Of a stretch of 64,000 nucleotides of DNA, positions 2,058 to 57,824 are shown piece after piece; positions within the stretch are counted from its first letter, which is position 1; every line of letters begins with the position of its first letter. The stretch comes from Fistulifera solaris (lineage: Eukaryota; Bacillariophyta; Bacillariophyceae; Naviculales; Stauroneidaceae), in the NCBI GenBank assembly GCA_030295235.1, contig AP026134.1, positions 248,001 through 312,000 of the forward strand, in the 5' to 3' direction. The translations under genes and the position numbers were made by a program. A model generated the notes under the pieces. It made no database searches. It saw only the letters and a program-made list of their open reading frames with translations, and was not told the origin of the DNA.

Positions 2058-3315
2058 TCATTCATTCGCCGTGTCAGCAAGGTTTCGAGAACTTTGCAAT
2101 TGCTGCAGCACTGCTTTGTTCTGGTAGATTTTTCGCGCGGCTCCCAAATCTTCCCAGAAGACCTAACAAAGCAACCAAACTTAGACAAACACACAAAAAA
2201 GTCAACGATGCCGATTCAGGAACGTACCTTCTTTTCGATCGGAAGCACTTCTTTCATTCGAAACATGAGCATACTTGAAATCCAAATTAATATAATGTTT
2301 GCAACTGTTATGCCTGTATAGAACGAACGGAAATTTGAGAAAGCATTCATCCGAAAACGTGATACCTGGTAAGAAGTGTATTTCACTGACCTATAGAAAT
2401 TCGACCCATCTGCCTGTAGTCATCGTAATCATAAACTTCACCATATCCTGGAATATTATTTCGAATTTCGGCTTCTTCTTCGGTAAGGACCAGGACATCC
2501 GAATGACGCGTAAAGATATAAGCGACCCAAATGATACCTGTGTTGACTGCTGGCGGCAACAAAGACGCGGAAATGGCCACTCCTACCAAGGAACTTGTGT
2601 TGTCATCGAGAAGAGATACTGCCACGCCCAAGCCGGAAAAGAACGCCACCGGACAGGCTACATAGAGATTGATTACATCACCTCGCGATTCCATTTCCGG
2701 CGTGGGCCAATCATCGGACAAACTCGTTGGACCCGTGACCAATCCAATCAGAGCACCCATGACAATGCAGATCACTAGCGAAGCGAACTCCACCACCATA
2801 GCTCGCTTCACCATGGCCCAATCACGAATGGTGGTTCCGTAGGCCAGTCCGATGACTGGGCCCATAATCGGCGACACCAACATGGACGCCAGTATCGTGG
2901 CGTTGCTGTTGGATACCAATCCGAGCCCCGCCAAAACGGAAGCCACCAATAGGAGGACATTGTAGTTGAAATTCATATAAAATCCTTCCTTAATTTTTTC
3001 GTGCACTGATGAAGTGTAATAGACGGAATTAGGAGCGGACAAAAAACAAATGGAACAGAATTAGATGACCGTCAGAAACAACGGAGTGCATTATGACTGA
3101 AACTACGAAATGAGAAACGTACTCTCTCGAACGCGGCTCACTTGCTCGGTTGAGAGCTCCGCCACTTCATTGTCATCCACAAATATTTTCACAATGTCAC
3201 GAAACTTGACGTTGCCCGTCAGGCTGCTCACTTGTTCTTTTACAGCTTCAATGTGATCACTGTGAATGGGTGCGACCAGTCCGGGTCGACTTGCTGCGGA
3301 TTCCGACACGCTCAT
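2058..3315 (-). CDS. DUF389 multipass membrane protein, copy A
   Basis: Four exons read leftward: 3315-3123, 3005-2391, 2313-2228, 2162-2058 (332 aa). Introns of 117, 77 and 65 bp all have GT-AG borders and each junction preserves the frame. The body has the DUF389 (TIGR00341-like) pattern: NFNYNVLLLVASVLAGLG, MLVSPIMGPVIGLAYG, a further helix pair, then SLLPPAVNTGIIW. An N-terminal soluble segment of about 65 residues precedes the membrane domain, and a charged C-terminus (FWEDLGAARKIYQNKAVLQ) follows. Known role of the family: poorly characterised integral membrane proteins; transport is suspected, not shown. It is a tandem paralogue of the gene at 3869-5167, with the same intron positions and phases. 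Confidence 0.88.
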
Positions 3316-18252: not shown

Positions 18253-18591
18253 CGTCTATTTTTACAAATGCAAGCTGCGTAAAATGAAATCGGCTTCCGA
18301 AGGTTTTCTCAGTCGGGACAAATTCCATCCGTGTTAGATGCAAAATGTGACCAGAAAAATGTTTCACAAGAGCTGTGAGTCCTGAGAAGCCAAGAGAATT
18401 TTCTATTCAACGCATGGCGTGCATCGCGCATCGCGGATGGGTCTTTAAAAAATATCAAGGAAAAAAATCGAATGTCTTACCGTTATTGCTAGTCGAGTAA
18501 AATTATGACGCTACAAGGGAGCTGGCTTTGGATGATGGAAAAGAGAGTGCAAGTACAGTACGGTACCGTACCATGCATGTAACGGAGGAAC

Positions 18592-18666
18592 GGCGTTAAA
18601 ATTCTGCCTCGTCGTAGACGCTACGTAGAATCTTGTATTTGGAGGCAGAATTTTGACGTCCTTCCT
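18592..18666. repeat. 75-bp hairpin repeat, copy 1
   Basis: Inverted repeat with arms TTAAAATTCTGCCTC and GAGGCAGAATTTT around a second small palindrome (CGTAGACGCTACG). Two closely related copies lie at 57229-57304 and 57312-57387. It has no coding capacity. It could be a tiny MITE or a structured RNA or terminator element. Confidence 0.75.
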
Positions 18667-19075
18667 GACAAGGTACCAGCACCGTATCCTTGTACCTGGT
18701 ACAAGGTACAGCACCGGTACCGGTACCGGTACCGGTACCTTGTCATAATTTGACTTTAGCAGTTGGCAGTGCCAGTAACCTTGTACCAAGGTACTATCGG
18801 TAAGTCAATAGTCAAGAGTCCTTGACGTTTAGGGTAGTATCGGTAAGTCGGTAAGTCAATAGTCCCCGACGTTTCTTATTTCATTTGCTCTCCTTTCTCA
18901 CCTGGGCCTAGCTAGATCTATCATCGAGATTCTATTCGAATGATTTGCAGGGAGCTCAAGGTTCTTCACGACAACATAGATGGTGAAGACCGTACGTGAT
19001 AGGTGTCGCTGTTAACAATTATTTATTTATATCACAATCACCGAGACTTGACGAGTACTTCAGTTTTAGTCTGCA
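18667..19075. repeat. GGTACC-rich intergenic patch
   Basis: Between 18674 and 18800 the sequence is dominated by GGTACC and GGTACCGGTACC palindromes, including four consecutive units at 18716-18739, and by AAGGTAC. A short duplication (GTATCGGTAAGTC) follows at about 18795 and 18838. No gene is seen in 18253-19075. Similar patches lie in the 5' flanks of other genes at 20.1, 25.9, 48.0 and 56.9 kb. Confidence 0.6.
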
Positions 19076-19825: not shown

Positions 19826-20439
19826 TGTATACTGTCGGACGTTGGTAGTAGAGTGTGAAATGCCTTGCTTCTGATGAAGTGAGGATAATGAGACAATCAA
19901 TTTGTTCCATGATTTGCATGAAGATCGAAAAAATGAAGTGCTGACACATGCAATCACCGGTTGAACGGAACATCGACGTTTTGGATAATGAGAAAAGTCG
20001 TTAAGTACGACTGTTGAACGGATGCGAGATAGAACTAGAGTACATAAATTTCCAAAGTGTGTCTAAATAATCTTTAATCGTCTTTATACTATGCGAATCG
20101 AGTACCGGTACCGGTACCAGGTATAGGTATAGGAACCCGAACCCACTTGGGACTTGAAGACCATCTTGATTTATCTGTGCGTTCGCTTTTCAGCAATACA
20201 CATGCAAACGAAAAAAGCCTCTTGAGCTACTTTGTAGTTAATGGGATGCCGTTTTCGCTAGGGTAGTAAGCGAGCTGTTATAACCTAGTGATTTACGGCA
20301 ACACTTTGGACCTTCAGGACGACATTGAGACATCGACCGAAACGGATCCCGTACTTGATTTGAAGTGGCACCACTTCATCATCTTTATAAAGAACTAGCC
20401 TGTAGAAAACCATGCGAAGCTAATACGAAGTCTCATTAC
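19826..20439. other. intergenic with GGTACC motif
   Basis: About 610 bp. It holds TACCGGTACCGGTACC at 20103-20118, about 280 bp upstream of the secreted-protein start. No gene supported. Confidence 0.4.
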
Positions 20440-25717: not shown

Positions 25718-26812
25718 TTGTTTCCTTCCGCAAATCGGTTCGTTGATTTGATCAAAGCAATCAAAGGGGTTGTAAGCTGTGAAAGAACGCGCAAGGTCTT
25801 TTTGTATTTGTAAAGACGCCTTGCTTCAAAAAAAAAAAACTGTGTGATCGTGGTGGCCCGCCGCTGCTTGTGGCGAACAATATCTCGTACTACGTACCAA
25901 GTACCCGGTACGGTATGGTACCCGGTACCGGTACCGTACCGGCATCTCGTGGTCCGAGAGTAACAGCCCATTATCGTACCACCACTACCACTACTGCTTG
26001 TTAGTGTGTCTGAGACGCGGACGGATGTGCGTCGCAAGATGACGCATGACTGAATTACAGTCAGTCGCGGCGAAAGGTCGCCTACATTTGGGATCTATAG
26101 TAACGAGTATTTTCACTACTATGGATTACAAATCCAAAAATAGACCGACATTATTAGAATTGAGGCAAGCATTGCAATAACCTCTAAAAATATCTGCATA
26201 TTGCTTGAAGGAAGTGAAAAACTGCGGAACGAACAAAGGTTAGGTAGCAGTCCTGCTAGTGACAGCACCATCACATGGGCCTGTAGTAAGTTCGAGAGAC
26301 AACGATACGGAAGATTTTTCGAGATTCAAATCATTGACGCGAGCTCTGCAAAAGCTTAAAATCATGAATTTTTAAAAGCCGACTATAGTTCAACACGCTC
26401 GTTAAAAACGAGCGAAGGTTGGGTAGCATTGTGGCGAAATCGATTCAGGACTGAATTTCAGTCCTGTCCAAAAACGGACAACACATTGGCCTATAGTAAG
26501 TTTGGAAGAGAACGATCGCCAAATCGTAAAAAAGATCATCCAAGATTGCATTTTAGCATGTGCAGCGGAAAGGTATTGCATCGTGTCAAACGACCAATGT
26601 GGCTTATGAATTGAGCAAGCAGCATTATCGCGATTGAGGTAGCAGTTTTGCTCGTCATCATGAGACAGGCAATTCAGTAAATGGTGGGGAACTCCAGCGC
26701 ACACTTCGAGCTATAGTAAAGTTGTCGAGGTTGCTTTTTTTCTTAGCGTTTGACATTTCGTTTTTCAATAATCATCATGTTCATCTTTGTTACATCCTAA
26801 ACAATAGAGAAT
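25718..26812. repeat. intergenic region with GGTACC patch and diverged hairpin units
   Basis: A gene-free stretch of 1.1 kb. 25895-25942 is a run of GTACC/GGTACC palindromes. From 26040 to 26740 four loosely similar segments each carry a hairpin followed by the motif CTATAGTAA or CTGTAGTAAGTT (near 26094, 26281, 26491, 26711), spaced about 190-220 bp. Clear hairpins include a 10-bp stem at 26446-26466, GTCC/GGAC at 26467-26480 and CTCGTT/AACGAG at 26398-26412. No open frame. A diverged tandem repeat or structured-RNA cluster are both possible. Confidence 0.45.
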
Positions 26813-45804: not shown

Positions 45805-46604
45805 TTAATCGACTCGTTGCTCCTCCATATCCGTGGCACGAACCGCCGTTCCTTTTAGGACATTGGCTTGGGTGACCGTGACGGTACCATCCGGATTGTG
45901 AGTTCGTTCGTAGGTCACTTCTTGGGTTTCCGGAGGCGGACGACGATCCCGCACGGGGGCACCGGAAATCAACATGGTCGCTCCCGCGAGGAACCACAAG
46001 ACAATCCCAAACACATTCGCCGTCGCGCCACTGTTCCACTGACAACTACCGTAATCACCTTCCCTGAAGATTGGCGAGTTGTTCGAGCACAATTCACTGC
46101 GGAGCATGAAAAACGTGAGTCCCTGAAAGAGCGGTAAAATCACCATATAAAGACCCGCGAGTTGGTTCCAACTTGTTTGGCTCAGTCGATGACAGAGTGA
46201 ACCAAATATCGCGGCGAGAATGGCAAATCCACCAATCAGGAGTGTGAGGCACCCAAACGCCCGGGCCGTCTTCCATTCCGCGTCATAATTTAGGTCGTCA
46301 TGATAAAAGCAACCCACTTTCGTGCGATAATTGTTGTTGGGGAATTCTTCGACATAATATTGTTTCTCCGTAAAGAGACTGAATTCTACCGTGGGTAAAC
46401 TGGAGTCGTTCATGGGCTTGATTTGCACTGATTCGCAATAAAATGTAAAGAGAGCGGAGCAACCAAATGCTGCCACCGCCAGTAGAATGGGGAAACTGAA
46501 CAAAAAAAGAAATTAGTGAAAGTAAGGAACGAATCCAGAACGCTTTATTGCTTTCGGATCGCATCACGATTGACTTACAATGTCTTGAAGACTGCCGAGA
46601 ACAT
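45805..46604 (-). CDS. four-helix membrane protein, copy A
   Basis: Exon 1 46604-46579 (26 nt), 83-bp intron with GTAAGT donor and TTCAG acceptor, exon 2 46495-45805 (238 aa). Four hydrophobic segments: FFPILLAVAAFGCSALFTFY, the LTLLIGGFAILAAIFGS region, LAGLYMVILPLFQGLTFFML, and FGIVLWFLAGATMLISG. A loop of about 55 residues between the first two helices has a conserved Cys (VGCFYHDD), and the third loop has EGDYGSCQWNSGATANVFG, a claudin-like topology. The C-terminal tail of about 45 residues is charged and probably cytosolic. Function unknown; paralogue of 47054-47831. Confidence 0.82.
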
Positions 46605-47053
46605 GCTGCCACTCTTTTTTTCTTTCAATCGTCAGCTAAAAGATAGGCTTTCTGGTTTGTCTAGGTAATGAGGAAGCACAACCGAATGGAAATCGTTTGA
46701 TTGATTATTCTATTCCAATGGAACCAGAACACGAAGCATCACCATTTTAGCACGAGCGCGGCGCAGGTGGAGAATTATGTCTTTCTTGCGGTCAACTTTA
46801 TTTTTGAGAGTCCTTGTATTTGCAAAACTCTAATCACGCGTTCGCATCGTGCGTCGGAGCTCGTGATAATTCGTGTACCTGGTAACCTTAACCGATAATG
46901 AACACAACCATTTTGTAGATTTTTGAGCTAAAACTTTGTTTCTAGCACGAACACTCATCCGTGTACTATCAAAACATTTTTATTTCTAATTCAATTTACA
47001 CAACACGTATTGACGAAAAAAAGAAAACGACGACGAAATTTCAGAGCAAAAGC
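46605..47053. other. spacer between the four-helix paralogues
   Basis: About 450 bp, AT-rich, carrying the copy A promoter and the copy B 3' end. No gene or repeat supported. Confidence 0.4.
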
Positions 47054-47831
47054 TCAATTGGACGGATGTTCCTCCGTGTCGGCGCCGGGGGCGGTTCCTT
47101 TCACAACATCCACTTCATTGACACCTCCGTTTTCCGTTTGCTCGTAGGTGACTTCATGCGTTGCAGCTGGCTTATTGGATGTCTCACGAACGGGCGCGCC
47201 CGCGAACAGCATGGCGGCACCCGCGAGGAACCAGAGGATAACACCACACACATTCGCCGTCGAGCCACTATTCCACTGACAGCCACCGTAATCACCTTCC
47301 ATAAAATCAAAGATTTGAGAATTTTCCGAGCAAAGTTCGCTTTGCAACATTAAAAAGGTCAGTCCTTGGAATAACGGTAGAATGACCAGATACAGCCCCG
47401 CCATGGCTTTCCACATCGAGTCACTGATGGGATAACAAAACGGCCCAAAGATCGATGCAATAATGGCCAGTCCACCGAGAACGATCGTCATGATGCCAAA
47501 CGCGCGGGCCGTTTTCCATTTCGAGTCGAACGGATAGTCTTCATCGAAGTAAAAGCAACCCGTCTTGACTTTGTAGTTGTTATCGGGGAACTCCTGAATG
47601 TAATATCGTTTGGTGGTGTAGAGACCGAATTCCACCGTCGGCAAACTCGCGTCGGTTATCGACTCGACTTGGACCGACTCGCAGAAAAAGGTAAAGAGAG
47701 CCGAACACGTGCAGGCGGCGACAGCGAAAATGGCCGGAAAACTACCACGGGGGTGAGCGAATAATCGAATGATACTGCACTTTGACTCGCGACAGCTCTC
47801 TCACTTACACTACCTTGGCGTCCGAACACAT
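47054..47831 (-). CDS. four-helix membrane protein, copy B
   Basis: Exon 1 47831-47809 (23 nt), 67-bp intron with GTAAGT donor and TGGTAG acceptor, exon 2 47741-47054 (236 aa). Same intron position, topology and motifs as copy A: LPTVEFGLYTTKRYYIQEF, KTGCFYFDEDY, LAGLYLVILPLFQGLTFLML and GDYGGCQWNSGSTANVCG. A tandem duplication is clear; the C-terminal tails diverge except for APVR and EVTYE blocks. Confidence 0.82.
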
Positions 47832-49040
47832 GATTGTTCTATTTGTAGAATGGTAGATGGATGATTGACTTGCGTTTGTTTGCTTTTTTTATCTTGCTTC
47901 GTTGCTTCTTATTGTCATGAAAGGCATCGACGAGCGGCGAATAACCGCGAAAAGGAACAGTACAACCAGGTACTACGTACCAAAGGAGCACTTTTGCTTG
48001 TTCAGGGTACCTGGTACCCCCAAAATGGGTACCGGATACGACACTCTCACAAGCCAGTCTTCCCGTATTATGACCTAGACAGTAGGTGAAAAATTAGCCC
48101 CTAGAGCGTTGAAAAGTCCTTTACTCAACGGAACTTCGTCCGTTCAACCCCGGTCTCCCGTGACTTGATGGGGTACCTCGCCGAGAATAACACGAGGTAC
48201 CCCCGTTGAAAGTTGGAAATGTCAGCTCCCCCACTTTCACAAAGGTTATTGGCTTAGCGTGCGCCTTCCGAGGTGTCTGTTTTCTGCTTTCTGATTTAGT
48301 CCAGTCATTGGTCTTGACTTTGTAGAAGTGATGCAGTCGTTAACATCTTTTGAAAAATGCAAAAGTTATTACTTTCAGTTTACAAAGTACATTTGCTTCG
48401 AGTTGGTAACCAAAAATGTTTGCGTCTGTGCTGGATCATGAACCGGCGCACAACCATGGTAAAACTTGTACGCCGGCTTGTAAGCTGGTCAGTTTTTAGT
48501 CCAGTCTTGAGTGACTTACCCAGATTTTCTGTAAGAATGAAAATACCCATTGTCCAGAATTTCTGACACACTCGCTTTTCTGCATGAATGATGTCCACTT
48601 GCTTCATAGTTCCTGGTGTACCCAGATATTCAGATTACAGCAGATACATAATTTCTGGACCAACCGAGATTTTCTGTATTACGGAGTAAGGAATTACGAC
48701 TGGTCCAGATTTTCTGGATCGCCCCAGATTTTCTGTATGAATGAAAATCACCTTCCGCCAATTTCTGTATCGCCCCATATTTCGCATATTTACGAAATAC
48801 AACTGGTCCGGAATACCTAAAATGCCCAGATTTAGAACGCTACGCCAGATTAGGCACCGCCCTACCACCCATTCCGATGATGCTTACGCCGGCACACGAT
48901 CCTCTGTAATTTCAGTCCAGTCACAGCTTTCTGCATTTCGACGAGTCCCAAATGTCCTATCTACAAGTTTACATTGCATAAAATTTGGTACAATTCAAAT
49001 AATTCAACGAACTTGCTAAATCCTTATTGACTAATACCAT
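47832..49040. repeat. repeat-rich left flank of accessory island
   Basis: No gene in about 1.2 kb. 47969-48200 has GGTACC/GGGTACC motifs and an inverted GGGGTACCTCG / CGAGGTACCCC pair (48170-48205). 48437-48495 is a degenerate version of the CGGCGTACAA hairpin of the 261-bp repeats. 48515-48790 has imperfect direct repeats built on CCAGATTTTCTGTA and GAATGAAAAT. 48890-48935 has another degenerate GCCGGC...CAGTCCAGTC segment. Confidence 0.6.
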
Positions 49041-49390
49041 CTAAATTTCCGTTTCCCAACCTATCAACTCATTTTCCTGAATGGCTATCAATTTGCAGAC
49101 TACCGACCCCTTCTCTTCATCGTCCTTAAAATCTTTAGCATATTCACGCAACCTCTTTAGGTTCTGCTTTGCCATTTGTTCAGCAATGATGAGGTTTTTC
49201 CCAGCAATTTCATGTTTGGTCCCCTTTCTGGTCGCTTTAGGTGCTTCTTTGGAGTTATCCTTACGAAGTTGCGCATAGTTGACTTTTCTCTCATCACCCC
49301 ATTCCAATCCCGACTTTGGGACAATCCATTCCGCAAACTTGTCATCAATTGATCTAAGATGATCTCTGATTCGTTGACGTGCGCCTTAGT
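49041..49390 (-). pseudogene. decayed relative of the island protein at 50526-51377
   Basis: An open stretch of about 115 codons reading leftward (RQRIRDHLRSI...IVPKSGLEWGDERKVNY...NLKRLREYAKDFKDDEEKGS) aligns with the C-terminal third of the protein at 50526-51377 (QRAQIRRHYRDIA...FVVPQSGLERGEKG...LEKMKKELAECEEGDN). Upstream similarity fades into stops, so this is read as a truncated, diverged paralogue rather than a working gene. Confidence 0.55.
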
Positions 49391-49590
49391 TCTGACCTTT
49401 AAAGTTTGAGAATCCTACATCCCTCCATTACTTCCACGAAAACCTTCTTGTCAACTTTTCTTATTTTAATGACTCCTTCCCAATCTATTGTCATTGTGGA
49501 TTCTAAAACATGGTATCATTCAATTGTTGCGCCAATTTTTGGAAGCCCGGTACTTGTAACGTATTCGAAAGGCCTGCTAGAGTGGTTCCA

Positions 49591-50483
49591 CCGGCTCATA
49601 CGCCGGCGTACAACCCAACCGGGTTACTTGTACGCCGGCGCATGCGCCGGTCCAACTTCCGTCCAGTCACGCCTAACGTGGTCAGCCTACGTTCATTAAG
49701 TGTCTGCTTGCAAGCTGGTACACCGCAATTTTTTTCCTCTAGCTTTGATCATTCGATTTCTGAATAGACAGTTATACTATTTGTGTTGCCACTACCCTCA
49801 AAGCGGGTTTCAGTTTCCTCCTCTAATTTTTCACGTTCTAGCACGCTTCAACCGGCTCATACTCCGGCGTACAACCCAACCGGGTTACTTGTACGCCGGC
49901 GCATGCGCCGGTCCAACTTCCGTCCAGTCACGCCTAAAGTGGTCAGCCTACGTTCATTAAGTGTCTGCTTGCAAGCTGGTACACCGCAATTTTTTCCCTC
50001 TAGCTTTGATCATTCGATTTCTGAATAGACAGTTATACTATTTGTGTTGCCACTACCCTCAAAGCGGGTTTCAGTTTCCTCCTCTAATTTTTCACGTTCT
50101 AGCACGCTTCAACCGGCTCATACTCCGGCGTACAACCCAACCGGGTTACTTGTACGCCGGCGCATGCGCCGGTCCAACTTCCGTCCAGTCACGCCTAAAG
50201 TGGTCAGCCTACGTTCATTAAGTGTCTGCTTGCAAGCTGGTACACCGCAATTTTTTCCCTCTAGCTTTGATCATTCGATTTCTGAATAGACAGTTATACT
50301 ATTTGTGTTGCCACTACCCTCAAAGCGGGTTTCAGTTTCCTCCTCTAATTTTTCACGTTCTAGCACGCTTCAACCGGCTCATACTCCGGCGTACAACCCA
50401 ACCGGGTTACTTGTACGCCGGCGCATGCGCCGGTCCAACTTCCGTCCAGTCACGCCTAACGTGGTCAGCCTACGTTCATTTAG
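49591..50483. repeat. 261-bp tandem repeat, about 3.4 copies
   Basis: Units start at 49591, 49852, 50113 and 50374 (exactly 261 bp apart); the last is cut at about 50483. Copies are nearly identical. Each contains the perfect 16-bp palindrome CCGGCGCATGCGCCGG (first at 49635-49650) and a long hairpin with 13-bp arms CGCCGGCGTACAA / TTGTACGCCGGCG around AACCC/GGGTT. Because 261 is a multiple of three, each unit shows the same 86-codon open frame on the + strand, which I regard as spurious. Recent tandem amplification. Confidence 0.92.
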
Positions 50484-50525
50484 TGTCGTTCAAAATAGTA
50501 TTATAATGGTTCGTTAGCCATGTCT

Positions 50526-51377
50526 TTAAAGTTGGTCATCTGCCATTTCCGCATTACCCTCATAAGATCCCCCGATCTTTGCCAGATCGGCCCATTGTCC
50601 CTCAATGCATTGTTCGAGTATCACTTTTCTGTTGTCCCCTTCCTCACACTCCGCTAGTTCCTTTTTCATCTTTTCCAAATTTTGAAGCGCAAGGTAAATA
50701 GACATAGTTACTGAGTGAAACAAATCATGATACACAGATGTCTCGGACTGAACCAAGTTCTTCAAATCCATTGCTGTAATAGGACCTTTTTCACCCCTCT
50801 CAAGACCCGATTGTGGCACAACAAACAATGGGTGGGTTCTGGCAATATCTCTGTAATGGCGCCGAATCTGTGCTCGCTGGTTCTTAGCATTAGGACCAGC
50901 CGGCAGATGCTTGTCGATGTCCACGAATCCGTACTTGTCTTCCTCCAACATTTTCGACGGATCAGTCTCATTTTCAAACTTGCCAACATTGAACGTCGTG
51001 TACTTTGCGGCCCACACCCCTTTAGAAATACACTCTGGGCATCGGCACAAGTAAATAGCCACATTCCCACTCACCCTCTTCAACAGCGGGTGGTTATTCT
51101 TAAAAAACTTAGCCGTGTTCTTAATGTCTCCTTTGTGATCAATTGTCTCAAGAAATTCTTCCGCCGACATTGCGTTGTCATTGGATTGCAGTTCCGCCAT
51201 AGCGTTGTCGATGATAAGTGCAATGCCTTTTTCCTGAACTTCTTCTTCAGCTGTGTCGATATTTGTGTAGCTGTCTCTGTCCGCAGCCGTGGTTTCCTTT
51301 TCGTTTTCGTTAGAATCAGCCAGCAAAGGCGGAGGCTGGGGACGACCTGTCGTGTCTTCCGTCGGGCTGCTGGCCAT
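50526..51377 (-). CDS. unrecognised island protein
   Basis: 283 aa from the ATG at 51377 (MASSPTEDTTGRPQPPPLL). The core has HPLLKRVSGNVAIYLCRCPE with a CxCPxC cluster, KYTTFNVGKFENETDP, RRHYRDIARTHPLFVVPQSG, and a C-terminal coiled coil (LQNLEKMKKELAECEEGD). Lys/Asn-rich sequence continues the open reading upstream to about 51682 in changing frames, so the true N-terminus may be longer. No known family is recognised. It sits between the 261-bp repeats and degenerate copies of their hairpin (near 51871), and a decayed relative lies at 49041. It probably belongs to a repetitive or mobile unit. Confidence 0.55.
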   Translation of the reverse strand: MASSPTEDTTGRPQPPPLLADSNENEKETTAADRDSYTNIDTAEEEVQEKGIALIIDNAMAELQSNDNAMSAEEFLETIDHKGDIKNTAKFFKNNHPLLKRVSGNVAIYLCRCPECISKGVWAAKYTTFNVGKFENETDPSKMLEEDKYGFVDIDKHLPAGPNAKNQRAQIRRHYRDIARTHPLFVVPQSGLERGEKGPITAMDLKNLVQSETSVYHDLFHSVTMSIYLALQNLEKMKKELAECEEGDNRKVILEQCIEGQWADLAKIGGSYEGNAEMADDQL

Positions 51378-51682
51378 GTTGTTATTGTGAACGGAACGTG
51401 TTGGATTTCTCTTACCGTTCTCGTTTGTGCTTCTCGTTGTCTTTTTTCTTGTTTGCCGGTTTTGGCTCAACTGTCTTAGAAGCCATTATGTTTTGCTTTT
51501 CGGTTCTTGATTTTTCTTCATTAGATGCGTCGCCGTGGTTATTTCCCTGATTGGCTACCTGCGGAGTCGCACTAGCGTTGTTTTTCTTGCTCGTCGGCGT
51601 AATTTTTGCCTTTTTTTCGTGCTGGTTTTGCGGCATGTTTCTTGGAAGCAACCGCGGTTTGCGCCACGTTTCGTGTTTTCAT

Positions 51683-52419
51683 TATTTTTATAAGTTTATT
51701 AACTAATATCCGTACTGTGCATTACAATCATTTGCTATTGCTCATTATTGCCAAGTCTAGAGACATAATAGCGACGTTGTGTGTTGTGTGCGGCGGGCGT
51801 CGATGAACATATACGGCAGAAGGCCAGAGTATCCGGTCCCGTCACGACTGAAAACGGAGCATGATCCGGCGTACAACACTAGTGGCTAATCTGTACGCGA
51901 ATAACGTTCACCCGAATAACAGTTCTCCCATCTTCTGTCAGAAGACACACCTTGCTACAAAGATCGCAACCAAGAAATCGTCGTCCGTTGCGAGCATCAT
52001 CATTTTCAATGAATGCTTTCAACATGGCTTCATATTCTTGCGATTTTGCTGATCGATATTTGTTTAGAAACGGATTGTGTTACGAAGCTGTTGGAGAGGG
52101 GGCGAGAAAGGCTAGGAAGAGGTCGAATGAAATACAATTATTTCTTTCTGATTTGTCGGCACGCCCAAAGTAATTTGCTGCTCTTACCATTTTGCATTTT
52201 TCAACAACCAAGGGCCAATCCACGAGCGAATCGCCTATAAATGCTACTATTCATCACTGTGGGTCTTATCTGGCACAACGGTAGAAAGGAGTTATAGAGG
52301 AACATTCCAATGTTTGATGCAGTTTCCGGTAAGTGTCTTGATTGCGATTATATTGTTTTCCGATTCAGACGTTCATCGCTGACACTGTGGAACTCATCTC
52401 AATAAAGAATCATAATTAC
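51683..52419. other. island spacer with degenerate hairpin
   Basis: About 740 bp. 51868-51902 holds a degenerate copy of the CCGGCGTACAAC ... GTACGCG hairpin, matching the 261-bp repeat and the copy at 48437, so such hairpins bracket the island protein. No supported gene; several short open frames lack any family likeness. Confidence 0.45.
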
Positions 52420-53520
52420 TACTTGCGTGAGGAAAGGTCCAAACCAAAAATATGTTCAAAATCGGTCGAGCAACTGCATTCTCTGTTGCGATTCCGTTGA
52501 GCGGAGTCGCGTCTCGGCAACAAGCATCGTCGCTAGCCCTATCCCGAAGAACAATTAGCCACCAAGTATTGATTACAGGCCACTTATACTCAGCGGATAA
52601 TGGTCCAGACTGGACCCACGGCGGAGCGCGGTTTCCGGAGAAGCTTTGCAAGTTGACTTGAGAGGTAACAGGTAAGTTCGTGGTGTTCGGACCGGAGACG
52701 GTTTTCTCATGTCAACTCGAGAAGCGACCCTAGTCTCGTGACAACAGACACTGCTCGACAATATGTTGTAAATTGGTCAATCTGCATCTAACTATTGTGA
52801 TTCTATTTCCAGTTTTGTGTTGCTTCGTGGTCATCGAGTCGACTGACACTATCACTCGATAATCGACTTCATCAGGGAATTTGCTACGTGCGCATGACAG
52901 TGATCGACGAACTTGTTCTCGTGGGATTTCGAAGCCCGCGCTGACGAAATCTCGTTAGGTAAGATAACAAAGACAATGTGTTGTAACTTGTGCACTCTGC
53001 TGTTACCCTTCCGATTCCATTGTCAGTTCAGTGTTGATCGGCGGCCCGTATTTTGCTTCGTAACGACAAATTGTGCTTGACGAACGAATCTCAATCCTTG
53101 TCATTTGGTATCCTAACAAGGTAAGATAACAATGGCATTCTATTGTGTTTGAAGCAAGCTGCATCTGCTCTTCGTCGTTCTGATTCTATTGTCAATACAG
53201 TTTTGCTCGGCGATCCGATGTCTTGCTCCTTGACGACAGATCACAATCGACGAACTTGTTCTCGTGCGATTCTCGATCCTTGTGTTTTCGTATCCTTATT
53301 AGGTAAGATAACAATGGCATTCTATTGTGTTTCGAGCGAGCTCCATCTAACGATTGTGATTCTATTTGAAGTTTCGTGTCCTACACGGTCATTGCGGCGG
53401 CGGCACGTATCACTCGTCAATCAACTCCCTGGGCGAATTTCCTGCGTGAGCATCAATATTCTTGTTTGATATGATAAGGAGCGTAATGTCTGAAAAGTTG
53501 GTGAAGCTGCTCTGCGTCGT
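52420..53520. repeat. diverged tandem modules with intron-like borders
   Basis: 52420-52700 is a diverged copy of the 354-bp unit found further right (shared CGGAGAAGCTTTG, AGGAAAG, GCATT..CTGTTG blocks). From about 52800 to 53520 four imperfect modules of 160-180 bp repeat; three begin GGTAAGATAACAA (52957, 53119, 53301) and each continues with TTCTATTGTGTTT-like, GATTCTATT and CAG-like segments. Every module therefore has a splice-donor-like start and a T-rich AG. No extended open frame. Confidence 0.6.
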
Positions 53521-53605
53521 TCCGATTCTACCGTCAATTATGTTTTGCTGGGCGGTCCGATGTGTCGTGACAACCAATATCTTCGCCCACCGCGGTCTAT
53601 ATAAG

Positions 53606-54362
53606 CCGCCCAATATAGATTACAGACGGTTTAGACTATGCCGTGAACCGTTGAAACTAAGTCCACGGCGAAGTGCGGTCACCGGAGAAGCTTTGGTAAG
53701 TCGTCTCGAGAAGGTGCAGGCAAGGTTCGTGATAGTCGGAAATGCATGGTATCAACAAATATTAAGTGCTCTAACCCTTTCGAATTCCACTGAATCGAAA
53801 GAGTGTATTACTAGCTGCGCTAGGAAAGATTCAAAACAGGAATCAGTTGAAATTTGGTCTAGCAAATGCATTTTCTGTTGAATTTCTGTCGCACGGCGTT
53901 CTTTTCGTAGCATCGCGGCAGCCAATATCTTTGCCCATCGCAGTCCATATACCTATATGCCGCCCAATATAGATTACAGACGGTTTAGACTACGCCGTGA
54001 ACCGTTGAAACTAAGTCCACGGCGAAGTGCGGTCACCGGAGAAGCTTTGGTAAGTCGTCTCGAGAAGGTGCAGGCAAGGTTCGTGATAGTCGGAAATGCA
54101 TGGTATCAACAAATATTAAGTGCTCTAACCCTTTCGAATTCCACTGAATCGAAAGAGTGTATTACTAGCTGCGCTAGGAAAGATTCAAAACAGGAATCAG
54201 TTGAAATTTGGTCTAGCAAATGCATTTTCTGTTGAATTTCTGTCACACGGCGTTCTTTTCGTAGCATCGCGGCAACCAATATCTTCGCCCATCGCAGTCC
54301 ATATACCTATATGCCGCCCAATATAGATTACAGACGGTTTAGACTACGCCGTGAACCGTTGA
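53606..54362. repeat. 354-bp tandem repeat, 2.1 copies
   Basis: Copies begin at 53606, 53960 and 54314 (spacing 354 and 354 bp). The first two are almost identical; the third breaks off at about 54362. Each carries GGTAAGTCGTCTCGAG after CGGAGAAGCTTT and the block GAATTCCACTGAATCG. The unit length is a multiple of three and shows a repeated open frame of about 90 codons on the + strand, with no recognisable protein. It lies directly 3' of the recombinase gene. Confidence 0.9.
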
Positions 54363-54570
54363 CTGGCTACTCAGTGAGATTTTCAAATTGACGATTCGTC
54401 AATAATTGGTAAGTGATACGATCACCGCACAAGCTGTTACGATTCTGTCTCCAGTTCTGTGTGTCTTGGCAGTCAGAACGGCGGGTTAATCCAACTACAT
54501 TTGTGTAATAAGGTAAGTTGCACGTAAGTTGGTTACTAATTAAATGCTCCAAGAGCCTGAGGAGTTGCCT

Positions 54571-56721
54571 TTATTTCTTGGCGCCACATATTTGCGATGC
54601 CTTTCCACTGCAGCAGTTGCCTCTGAAATGGATTTTGAAGTCTTTCCATTTCGCACAAAAAGAAGTAATGTCTCCTTGGTGGTGATTTCGAAAGCAATTC
54701 AGTGCAGGCTGGAGACAGGTATAGTAGAATTTCTTGGCGGAGGCCGTGAACTTGATAACAGGTTGCCCTTGTTCGTTGAGAAGGATAGATTGCTCGAGCT
54801 CAAGAAGCAGCATTACCTTGTCCTTGGTTTCATTTTGACTTTTGACAGCCAATCTACCAGGTAAGTCATTTTCTTCGGTGCGCTGTCTCTTGTTAGCCAG
54901 TTGGAGACTATGACCATCCAACGATCTTTTCATGTTTTTGACTGGCACAGAGAAGGAAAATGAATTTGAGTTAGAATCATGGTGATTACCATGAGCGATT
55001 GGGATCTCATTTTGGTTGCCATGGACGGACTTCAATCTCCTCTCAGCTTTGGCAGTTGCGTCTTCTGTGACGAATCGAATAAGCTGATGAAGATCCGGAA
55101 CAGCTCGATCAGGTAAAGTGGATGCAAAAGCTTTTACTTGCTGATCAACATCACTGCAGCGGGGCTTAAACTGACGGGCCATCTTCATCAGAAACGGAAC
55201 ATCTTTAGATCTCGGGTGATTAGGTCCAAGGTTCATGTCTTCTTCAACAAACATGACTGCTACATCATAGAGACTCTTACGATATAGGGGATTCTCATCA
55301 TTCAAGCGTGCCAAATTCTGGGGTTCCTCACAATGAATGTGGCGCCATTTGCTAACCATGTTTTCCTCGTTGATGTAATCCTTCGAAGTATATGCATCTT
55401 TGGCATATTTTACAGCCTGCTCGTCCGTTTCGTGTCGAGCATCTTGTCGAAGGCCTTGAGGTTTCGCGTCGCCCCAGATCGCTAAAAGGTAGGCAGTCTT
55501 GCGGAACATGTGTGTGCCGACTTTAAGGGCATTCTCACCAAATGGAACATACGTAAATAATGCCTGCGTGAAAAAGGTTTTGAAGGAACCATATTTCTCT
55601 TGGGATGTAAAGTTACCGTCGGAAGGAGGTTTCTTGAGATCATCTCTTACGGGAAACAGATTACCGGATTTGATACCGGCAACGTAGATGTACACCAAAA
55701 GCGCACGAATGGGGCACAACTCGGGGTATACGTGGTCAGCTTTCATGCACATGTAGGCCTTCTTCTTGTCAGTCTTTCCGATGACCCACAGACAAAGTGA
55801 ATCAACCGCACCGTCTGTCTTCTTAAAAAGATCGCTGTAGAAATTGTCATGGGAGATAGAAAGTAACTCGTCTGCACGAAGAAAGAGACGACAGCACATT
55901 ATTATCATGACCCAAAGAGAAAGACCATAGAGCCCAATGTCGCGACATTTGTTAGTAAGACCATCATAAAGTTTGCGCAAGTCCATAGGAAATAATTGCG
56001 AGCATCCCTTCACCTGATACGAAGGATCGTTAAGGCATTTCTTCGCGTTGGTCCACTTGTTATGTGTAGTCGGATTGCCTTCCCGACAAATTTGAGGTTT
56101 TTTGTAGTGGCGACGGCACCCGTCACTATCTCCACTAGTCATGCATTGTTCACAATAGTCTTTGTACTGAGCTTTGTCGTGGCCGCGTGCAATGTGGACC
56201 GCAGAAACGGCAGCAGCGAGCTGTTCGGCCTTCTGTGGTGATCCCCAGTCACCCGAGCAAAAGATTTTTTCGCCGTGGATGTCAGAGAGTATAACATCAG
56301 GATTAATAGTCTCGTCTGTATCATAAGGAATAAGGGTCAATGGTGTAGAAGGGTCACACCGCTTGTATCGTAAGAAAGCAACAAGACTCTCGACCTTAAT
56401 AGATGGGATGTGACTATTATCTGGGCTGAGATCTTTCACGAGCATCAGCATGGATTCGTAGTCACCAGTCCAAGCTAAGAAGCGCCATAACTGCCTGAGT
56501 ATATTAAGGTAAACCTTTGCTGTACTCGGTTTGATGTGCTGGCCATTAAATATTTCAAAACTCTTCGCATCGAAGTCGCACCAACGAGAATGATCAGGCA
56601 TGTCGATGTTTAAGAGATAGGCCTGGTTCTTAACACCTCTTTCAATCGCCGACTGGATAGGTGGAGGAAGCCGGCTCTTAACACAGATCCGGCTTTTCTG
56701 ATCTTCACTATCTGTCGACAT
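54571..56721 (-). CDS. tyrosine recombinase (Crypton-like transposase)
   Basis: 716 aa, one uninterrupted exon. The catalytic set of tyrosine recombinases is complete: Arg282 in CCRLFLRADELLSIS (box I), His404 and Arg407 in KVGTHMFRKTAYLLA, His430 and the presumed nucleophile Tyr439 in ARHETDEQAVKYAKDAY; the nine-residue His-to-Tyr spacing is exactly that of GHxx...Y in integrases. Residues about 25-115 look like the N-terminal core-binding helices (PSTAKVYLNILRQLWRFL). A Cys/His cluster (YCEQCMTSGDSDGCRRH, about 190-215) may bind zinc. About 270 residues follow the active site, including basic segments (RSLDGHSLQLANKRQR). No reverse transcriptase lies nearby, favouring a Crypton-type DNA transposon over DIRS/Ngaro. 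The frame looks intact. Confidence 0.82.
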   Translation of the reverse strand: MSTDSEDQKSRICVKSRLPPPIQSAIERGVKNQAYLLNIDMPDHSRWCDFDAKSFEIFNGQHIKPSTAKVYLNILRQLWRFLAWTGDYESMLMLVKDLSPDNSHIPSIKVESLVAFLRYKRCDPSTPLTLIPYDTDETINPDVILSDIHGEKIFCSGDWGSPQKAEQLAAAVSAVHIARGHDKAQYKDYCEQCMTSGDSDGCRRHYKKPQICREGNPTTHNKWTNAKKCLNDPSYQVKGCSQLFPMDLRKLYDGLTNKCRDIGLYGLSLWVMIIMCCRLFLRADELLSISHDNFYSDLFKKTDGAVDSLCLWVIGKTDKKKAYMCMKADHVYPELCPIRALLVYIYVAGIKSGNLFPVRDDLKKPPSDGNFTSQEKYGSFKTFFTQALFTYVPFGENALKVGTHMFRKTAYLLAIWGDAKPQGLRQDARHETDEQAVKYAKDAYTSKDYINEENMVSKWRHIHCEEPQNLARLNDENPLYRKSLYDVAVMFVEEDMNLGPNHPRSKDVPFLMKMARQFKPRCSDVDQQVKAFASTLPDRAVPDLHQLIRFVTEDATAKAERRLKSVHGNQNEIPIAHGNHHDSNSNSFSFSVPVKNMKRSLDGHSLQLANKRQRTEENDLPGRLAVKSQNETKDKVMLLLELEQSILLNEQGQPVIKFTASAKKFYYTCLQPALNCFRNHHQGDITSFCAKWKDFKIHFRGNCCSGKASQICGAKK

Positions 56722-57228
56722 TCGTATCTTCGGAATACTTTTAAAACAAATGAGGGAAGATGGTACGGAACTAAAAATAATGAGCGTACTGCGTGGGGTA
56801 GAAAAATGGAGGGACGAAAAAATAAGTGCGAAGGGGAGGGCGGAATTACTTGCAACGGACGCAATTGGGGAATAGTGTAGGAAGGCCGACTCTCAAGGGA
56901 ATGGCAATTAGGTGGTATCCTGGGTACCCGCAGGTACCCGCCTAAATACCAAACGAGGTACCCACCTAAATACCAAACGAGGTACCCACCTAAATACTTC
57001 AAAGTTTTACCTTTTTCCCCCTAATAATAGAAGAGAAGGTATCTTTCACCAAGCTCAAGGATCTACTATCTACTTGATCTTTACGGCCTAAAAAGAAGCA
57101 GTTGGCAATGAGAACCCTACAACGCCAAGCGCAAGATTTCGTGATGATCGGAGTCGCGAATGTTCTTCATTCTCACAATGATACGAGGTGACACACTACT
57201 CTACGTATTTTGTGTAGCAAACGGGCAA
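56722..57228. repeat. 24-bp minisatellite with GGTACCC
   Basis: 56924-57000 contains GGGTACCCGC copies then two and a half units of a 24-bp repeat (AAATACCAAACGAGGTACCC...). It lies about 200 bp upstream of the recombinase start. The rest of the 500 bp shows no gene. Confidence 0.7.
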
Positions 57229-57387
57229 CGGCGTTAAAATTCTGCCTCGTCGTAGACGCTGCGTAGAATCTTGTACTGAGAGGCAGAATTTTAACGTCCT
57301 TCCCGGGGAACAGCGTTAAAATTCTGCCTCGTCGTAGACGCGACGTAGAATCTTGTACTGGGAGGCAGAATTTTAACGTCCTTCCCG
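57229..57387. repeat. 75-bp hairpin repeat, copies 2 and 3 in tandem
   Basis: Two copies (57229-57304, 57312-57387) of the element seen at 18592, each with arms GTTAAAATTCTGCCTC and GAGGCAGAATTTTAAC and the tail CGTCCTTCCCGG. They are 81 bp apart and about 95 percent alike by eye. No coding capacity. Confidence 0.8.
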
Positions 57388-57824
57388 GATGTTCTGTCTT
57401 ATGTTGGATGGTGCGTGTTGCATGGCAAATACTGTTTGAAGGATTTGTCGACGTCACATTGTCCTTCATGATTCATGTTTGAGGCGATGCCAGTCCCTAA
57501 ACCTCAACCCTCATTATCTCGTCAATCGTGCCTTTGCTAAGGCTTTGAGCGAGAGCGAGGAGCAGTGGAAACCTAAAAATTAACTGCTCATGTTTTTCAC
57601 CGGAAACCATAAGTATTGAGTTGTCCTTCGCTTTCAGCTATATACATGATTGACAATCCATGACTCTTATTTGCGTTGCTGTCGAATTCGATTATGTCTT
57701 CAAGCTTCGGGGTTCATTGCAAGTTTATAAAGCTAGATCTACTTTCAAGTTCTAACTAAAATGCACATCATGATTTCTACTATGCCTAATGCAGCAGAAA
57801 TCGATCCTCAATCTCAAATTTTGT
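57388..57824. other. intergenic
   Basis: About 440 bp between the repeats and the aldo/keto reductase stop. No supported gene. Confidence 0.35.

Follow-up and report, generated by a model that had tools for sequence, protein, structure and literature searches.

An open reading frame (ORF) in a 64,000-nucleotide stretch of the Fistulifera solaris genome (contig AP026134.1, positions 248,001 to 312,000; hereafter the window) encodes a divergent, intact tyrosine recombinase, which most likely mobilises its own DNA as a Crypton-type transposon. The diatom F. solaris is allopolyploid, and its chromosomes form homoeologous pairs (PMC5935921); the transposon has probably inserted here in only one of the subgenomes of this allodiploid host. 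The original prediction, made from the letters of the window, had proposed a Crypton-like recombinase in a diatom. The host was named correctly, and the Crypton-type element is borne out by the DNA junctions of its relatives and by the 5' end in the window.

Identification of the recombinase

The gene and its main features are as follows.

54571..56721, minus strand: tyrosine recombinase gene, 716 aa, ATG start at 56721, intact (tblastn relatives on C1, profile-profile alignment)
55405..55878, minus strand: catalytic residues R282, K316, H404, R407, H430 and Y439 (codons 55878 down to 55405)
56086..56154, minus strand: Cys/His cluster C190-x2-C193-x8-C202-x2-H205-x6-C212, a possible zinc ligand set

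The uninterrupted frame of 716 aa lies exactly where it had been predicted; its strand, absent from that prediction, is minus, and the plus-strand in-frame reading of the same interval contains 15 stops. The predicted R...HxxR...H...Y set is present as R282, H404-x-x-R407, H430 and Y439, with K316 in addition. R407 and H430 are 23 residues apart and H430 and Y439 are 9 residues apart, which are the spacings in XerD and Cre as well. The possible zinc cluster that had also been noted comprises five candidate ligands, but only C190, C202 and H205 (3/5) are matched in the relative on C1.

A tblastn search of the 51.7-Mb, 61-contig assembly revealed two further matches to the recombinase, both on C1. 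The C1 relative is 33-37% identical to the window protein in the aligned parts and shares all six catalytic residues. A profile of the catalytic domain, built from the window protein and the two C1 fragments, was aligned using hhalign with Cre, lambda Int, FimB, FimE, XerC and XerD. The global alignment had a score of 24.99. None of 200 column shuffles reached this value (maximum 13.95), and the score of the reversed profile was 4.07. In this alignment, the six catalytic residues land on Cre R173, K201, H289, R292, W315 and Y324. Thus, the full catalytic set of a tyrosine recombinase is retained under proper alignment, in register with both Cre and the C1 relative.

A number of results count against this identification. 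None of the Pfam, PHROGs, NCBIfam and PADLOC models matches the 716-aa protein; Pfam gave 0 families at E<=10, so neither PF00589 nor GCR1_C is matched. PF00589 (Phage_integrase) has 0 matches in the whole F. solaris genome, and the same search was positive in 14/14 control genomes. Since the profile search against integrase families, which the original prediction had named as a check, gave nothing for this protein, the identification rests on other evidence. The catalytic motif alone was dropped as proof of a recombinase after a shuffle test and is weak evidence, because its strict version appeared in 104 of 20,000 shuffles of the 716-aa protein and its loose version in 3,406 of 20,000. The probability that hhalign itself assigns to the global alignment is 30.5%. 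The local alignment (probability 0.78%) is not significant; the score of the trimmed domain, whose ends were set with the motif already known, was reached by 3 of 200 shuffles, and the untrimmed score by 7 of 100. The AlphaFold single-sequence model had a mean pLDDT of 34.3 and no usable fold. In addition, residues 51-131 in the N-terminal part weakly match ribosomal protein L18 (E 0.006-0.017), which was the sole match in PDB sequence searches. L18 was rejected as the identity of the protein and the match was taken as chance because these residues fall outside the catalytic region.

Among the matches to fragments of the relatives, NDC10_II (E 0.046, one C1 fragment) was not reproduced with a shorter fragment and was not used. 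The matches of C1/C5 fragments to PB1, FmdE, Acetyltransf_11, Chordopox_A30L and DnaD_N (E 0.037-0.15) were sub-threshold and were taken as chance.

Related elements on C1 and C5

Two loci carry relatives of the element.

L026 3788-10077 (C1): dimer of 3.14-kb Crypton-type units with locus-specific 6-bp cores
L060/L061, C5 about 1794041-1800339: dimer of 3.14-kb Crypton-type units with locus-specific 6-bp cores

The C1 locus has one unit of 3,139 bp and one of 3,145 bp in head-to-tail order, with three identical copies of GAAGAC between and on either side of them. Using the C1 protein as a query, a second pair was found on C5; its two units are 98% identical to those of C1 and are accompanied by three copies of ATCTTC. 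A DNA search with the C1 unit showed these four copies and no other in the genome. The homoeologous sites are free of units: the one on C6, the homoeologue of C5, contains exactly one ATCTTC between the joined flanks, and the one on C2, the homoeologue of C1, contains one hexamer that matches the core at 4/6. The matched frames in the C1 and C5 units are recombinase pieces only, and no reverse transcriptase match was found in the C1 frames scanned. Self-comparison of the C1 unit showed no split direct repeats, and there are no terminal inverted repeats at its exact ends.

The reading frames on C1 and C5 are broken as assembled. This may be sequence error, because within the dimers gap events outnumber substitutions (9 vs 3 on C1 and 28 vs 9 on C5). 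Between the two loci, 20-25 substitutions per ~3,125 bp were found (0.64-0.80%), which shows that the C1/C5 family moved recently. The recent activity proposed in the original prediction is therefore supported for this family. It is not supported for the window copy: the parts searched contain no close copy of it, and on the 3' side it carries diverged repeats and a decayed gene fragment.

In the ungapped columns (59 gapped columns were excluded), 15 substitutions pair C1a with C1b and C5a with C5b, and 0 support the other pairings. Together with the locus-specific cores (GTCTTC vs ATCTTC in gene orientation), this indicates that each dimer coalesces at its own locus. Such a dimer could have arisen, for example, when a circle excised from the sister chromatid re-integrated; unequal crossing-over or an assembly artefact are the alternatives.

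Two observations concern the surroundings of these loci. The C5 insertion lies upstream of an open frame that, judged by eye, resembles an FtsJ-type methyltransferase gene. At L026 10-203 (C1 1291010-1291203), there is a short tandem-repeat sequence that accounts for nearly all of the matches listed from a search with 332 genome-wide, often in arrays.

The window element is linked to this family by its 5' end. In gene orientation, the C1 and C5 elements start with RTCTTC (GTCTTC on C1, ATCTTC on C5) followed by TCTTAGTATATAT, and the window element starts with ACCTTC followed by TCTTCTATTATTAGG. Each of the five elements has the 5'-terminal motif RYCTTCTCTT a single time, at its 5' end (57040 in the window), and at no other place. 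In the 313,000 strand-bases fetched from eleven sources, with 6 kb of the window counted twice, it has 5 occurrences vs 1.3 expected from zero-order base composition, the motif having been defined after the ends were compared. The leader measures 313 bp in the window element against 310 bp in the C1 element, the latter counted to the first ATG of the C1 frame, which is broken as assembled. The C1 and C5 elements are like the window element in their homologous recombinase, catalytic residues, type of 5' motif and similar leader. They differ from it in their 3.14-kb size, head-to-tail dimers, exact 6-bp cores and broken frames, whereas the window element is single, has an intact gene and has 6.6 kb of other sequence behind it.

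The probable insertion and its homoeologous site

The following features define the insertion in the window and its possible ends.

47968..57041: whole insertion, ~9.07 kb; C13 is without it, ~84% identity on both sides; AGGTA at 47968-47972 and 57037-57041
57035..57040, minus strand: 5'-terminal core ACCTTC (GAAGGT on the plus strand), coinciding with the resumption of homoeology
47966..47971, minus strand: candidate 3' junction core ACCTGG (CCAGGT on the plus strand), placed by the homoeology break, weaker than the 5' end
54064..54069, minus strand: alternative 3' core ACCTTC (6/6), giving a 2.97-kb element; inside the 354-bp repeat, recurring at 53710
56932..56997: 24-bp minisatellite with GGTACC just inside the 5' end (repeat listing)
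53571..54362: 354-bp tandem repeat, 2.3 copies, 96%, with diverged copies leftward to about 52415

Window positions 38862-64000 pair with the homoeologue C13 at ~84% identity, minus ~47,970-57,036 and some shorter gaps, for example at an 82-bp repeat. In the 15 best solutions of the best-split alignment, the left edge falls within 47963-47974 and the right edge within 57036-57042, and the 5-bp sequence AGGTA is present at both homoeology breaks. The comparison with an empty allele, another check named in the original prediction, gave breaks with AGGTA at both edges, but the cores agree at only 4/6. The homoeologue carries the hexamer ACCAGG, which matches the 3' core ACCTGG at 5/6 and the 5' core ACCTTC at 3/6. 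A crossover midway in an imperfect core would yield this pattern of ACCTTC, ACCTGG and ACCAGG. Within the insert, GGTACC occurs nine times, always no more than 230 bp from one of the two ends, a distribution suggestive of paired subterminal repeats. The predicted positions of the repeats around the gene proved right, with the 354-bp repeat on its 3' side and the minisatellite on its 5' side.

Homologous elements exist on C1 and C5. A DNA search of 50,490-57,040 against the genome revealed no second copy, the matches being to internal repeats and to a stretch of 35 bp on C35. Self-comparison of the window insert showed no inverted repeat joining its ends.

It is proposed that the recombinase would bind both ends of the element and that Y439 would cut at each border of the ~6-bp core. 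The element would then be excised as a circle carrying one core. Recombination of this circle with a chromosomal site that has a similar core (RYCTTC) would leave one core on each side. What has been directly observed is that the homoeologue lacks the stretch, that the catalytic residues are present, that the 6-bp cores are repeated on C1 and C5, and that the empty C6 site has a single exact core.

Several features of the DNA are unfavourable to a Crypton-type insertion. With two homoeologues alone and no outgroup, an insertion at the window locus and a deletion on C13 are indistinguishable. The candidate 3' core agrees with the 5' core in only 4/6 positions, and the exact ACCTTC is found at 54064 rather than at the 3' end of the 9-kb insertion. 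The GGTACC clusters could be host sequence because they also occur elsewhere in the window, at 18562-18734, 20107-20113 and 25917-25930, besides those of the insert at 48006-48196 and 56923-56981; the window has 34 sites in all. In addition, the C1 unit is not wholly free of inverted repeats because of a subterminal inverted match (87.5%, E 0.029).

L026 3811-3832 and 6804-6827: C1 subterminal inverted match, positions 24-45 and 3017-3040 of the 3,139-bp unit

This match may represent a pair of binding arms for the recombinase; nothing comparable was seen in the window insert.

Extent of the element and the passenger region

We hold with moderate confidence that all ~9.07 kb is one element, in which the recombinase reads inward from 313 bp inside the 5' end and is followed by ~6.6 kb of repeats and a second frame, ORF2. 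A single 9-kb element is favoured by the AGGTA common to the two homoeology breaks and by the nearness of all nine GGTACC sites to the ends. It is possible, though rather unlikely, that the Crypton comprises only ~2.97 kb (54064-57040, with ACCTTC at both ends) and that the other 6.1 kb, with the satellites and ORF2, is a separate insertion, a second tandem unit or old sequence lost from C13. The exact 6/6 core at 54064 is part of an 8-bp match, GAGAAGGT; the length of 2.97 kb is close to that of the 3.14-kb relatives, and these relatives sit as tandem units on both C1 and C5. However, the 354-bp repeat runs across this core and contains it again at 53710, a chance 8-mer match somewhere in 6.6 kb has an estimated probability of ~0.1, and the homoeology break would match the target core only by accident.

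The region behind the recombinase contains the following features.

50526..51470, minus strand: ORF2, an open frame of 314 aa with a CRCPEC motif (first ATG at 51377), passenger gene or unrelated
49041..49385, minus strand: decayed second ORF2-like fragment (36% over 39 aa)
49586..50487: 261-bp tandem repeat, 3.5 copies, 99% (repeat listing)

ORF2 had no Pfam match, and the only relatives found in the genome were two weakly matching tandem ORFs on C1 (E 6.5e-4 and 1.5e-3). These tandemly duplicated ORFs of 457 and 440 aa carry a CxCPxC motif (L047 3955-5328 and 7471-8793; C1 about 1177-1182 kb). A link between ORF2 and the recombinase was considered and none was shown; the C1 relatives of ORF2 lie ~115 kb from the C1 elements. 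Diverged repeats span 52415-54234 behind the recombinase gene. The 354-bp repeat was rejected as a small derivative of the element, since its ends are not at cores.

There are 35 stop-to-stop frames of at least 70 aa in 47970-54570, nine of which (ORF2 and eight others) were scanned, and no reverse transcriptase or capsid match was found in these nine. The predicted absence of such genes thus agrees with the nine insert frames; the scan extended neither to the remaining 26 nor to the host genes around the insertion. No match to a C48 peptidase was found in the frames scanned.

Two further features lie near the insertion. At 57222-57388 of the window, an 82-bp near-palindromic repeat forms a head-to-tail dimer that has no counterpart in the homoeologue and looks like a miniature inverted-repeat transposable element. 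This repeat was found at no fewer than 38 further loci at 78-99% identity (40 of 416 candidates were scored), mostly as single units of ~80-100 bp and several times as double units of ~130-173 bp. At 45908-47707, each of two adjoining stretches also matches the homoeologous copy of the other (69-71%); they are apparently a tandem gene pair.

Alternative origins of the locus

It is doubtful, but conceivable, that the 9.07-kb insertion is one element made of a Crypton-derived recombinase at the 5' end and an acquired passenger region (ORF2 and satellites). It would then be a cargo-carrying tyrosine recombinase transposon outside fungi, and its sister family would form head-to-tail dimers in situ when its excised circles re-integrate, in the manner of bacterial integrative elements. 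A Starship-like carrier, with a recombinase at the 5' end reading inward and ~6.6 kb of cargo, is unlikely. Its layout agrees with a recombinase 313 bp from the 5' end and with ORF2 and repeats in the same homoeology gap; however, no DUF3435 (PF11917) match was found among the Pfam results, the insert of 9 kb is below the 15-kb lower size of Starships (PMC12134995), and the cargo would be one ORF of no known family, its decayed relative and satellites.

Domestication, in which the recombinase would be kept as a host gene for a cellular role, is improbable, although no second copy was found and the 716-aa frame is intact whereas the C1/C5 copies are broken as assembled. It was rejected, and this part of the original prediction is unsupported, because the locus is missing from the homoeologous chromosome and has a transposon-type terminus at its 5' end. 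In addition, all catalytic residues are kept, unlike in domesticated DUF3504 domains, which are without most of them (PMC3212892).

Some protist viruses carry tyrosine recombinases. A remnant of an integrated virus (polinton-like or giant), or of a tyrosine recombinase retrotransposon (DIRS/Ngaro), that has lost its other genes is likewise improbable: the nine scanned insert frames contained no reverse transcriptase, capsid or other match, three viral-contig scans, reaching close relatives only, revealed no relative, and the C1/C5 units hold only a recombinase between 6-bp cores, without split direct repeats in self-comparison. In its favour, DIRS elements are tabled for the diatom Phaeodactylum with 14 copies (PMC5859163).

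Novelty and significance

Few eukaryotic cut-and-paste elements are as poorly understood as Cryptons, owing to their low copy numbers and to ends that are difficult to define (PMC3212892). They are known in the diatom Phaeodactylum (PMC3212892), for which 13 copies are tabled in PMC5859163. In the literature searched, to which the two genome papers of the species did not belong, no description of a Crypton in Fistulifera was found; in the available text of PMC5963040, Crypton appears as a class name only and Fistulifera in the references only. The window element can thus be regarded as a new, divergent member of the Crypton type, since Cryptons are known in Phaeodactylum and the present elements are undescribed in the literature searched. 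The dimers seen in situ are a more unusual observation than a new member.

The allodiploid host provides homoeologous reference sites free of charge, namely the C6 site with a single exact ATCTTC and the C2 site with a diverged core. These sites, together with the 15 substitutions that group the dimers, make the circle-and-core mechanism directly testable in F. solaris. Genome editing has reportedly been achieved in this diatom (PMC13276009).

Comparison with known systems

The elements differ from DIRS/Ngaro in that no reverse transcriptase was found in the nine of 35 insert frames scanned and no split direct repeats were found in the C1 unit. The recombinase resembles Cre, XerC/D and lambda Int in its six catalytic positions, which are in register, but it has no significant sequence-profile match to them and its N- and C-terminal regions differ. 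Starships, which are fungal and have a DUF3435 captain, likewise combine a single inward-reading tyrosine recombinase at the 5' end with short direct repeats and with other DNA behind the recombinase (PMC12134995). Unlike them, the window element has no DUF3435 match, is far smaller, has no recognisable cargo and lives in a non-fungal host. It differs from CryptonF in that the GCR1_C DNA-binding domain is not matched (Pfam, E<=10).

CryptonS, compared here by description and not by sequence, differs in its ends, which are TATGG in most CryptonS and RYCTTC here, as well as in the C48 peptidase, not matched in the frames scanned, and in the possible 9-kb size of the window element (PMC3212892). 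The two are alike in a stramenopile or diatom host, a tyrosine recombinase as the sole recognisable enzyme, no GCR1_C match, low copy number and a long C-terminal extension (PMC3212892). Short terminal direct repeats measure 5-6 bp in CryptonS (PMC3212892) and 6 bp in the C1/C5 relatives.

Kojima and Jurka described Cryptons as having a tyrosine recombinase, no terminal inverted repeats, and direct repeats of 4 or 6 bp that were taken as recombination substrates, and a circular intermediate was proposed (PMC3212892). Terminal repeats together with a single-copy empty site are found for the C5 relatives; C1 has three identical cores with a homoeologous hexamer at 4/6, and the window has AGGTA at both breaks with a core at 4/6. 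Apart from the subterminal inverted match, in which they depart from it, the C1 and C5 elements are close to this description.

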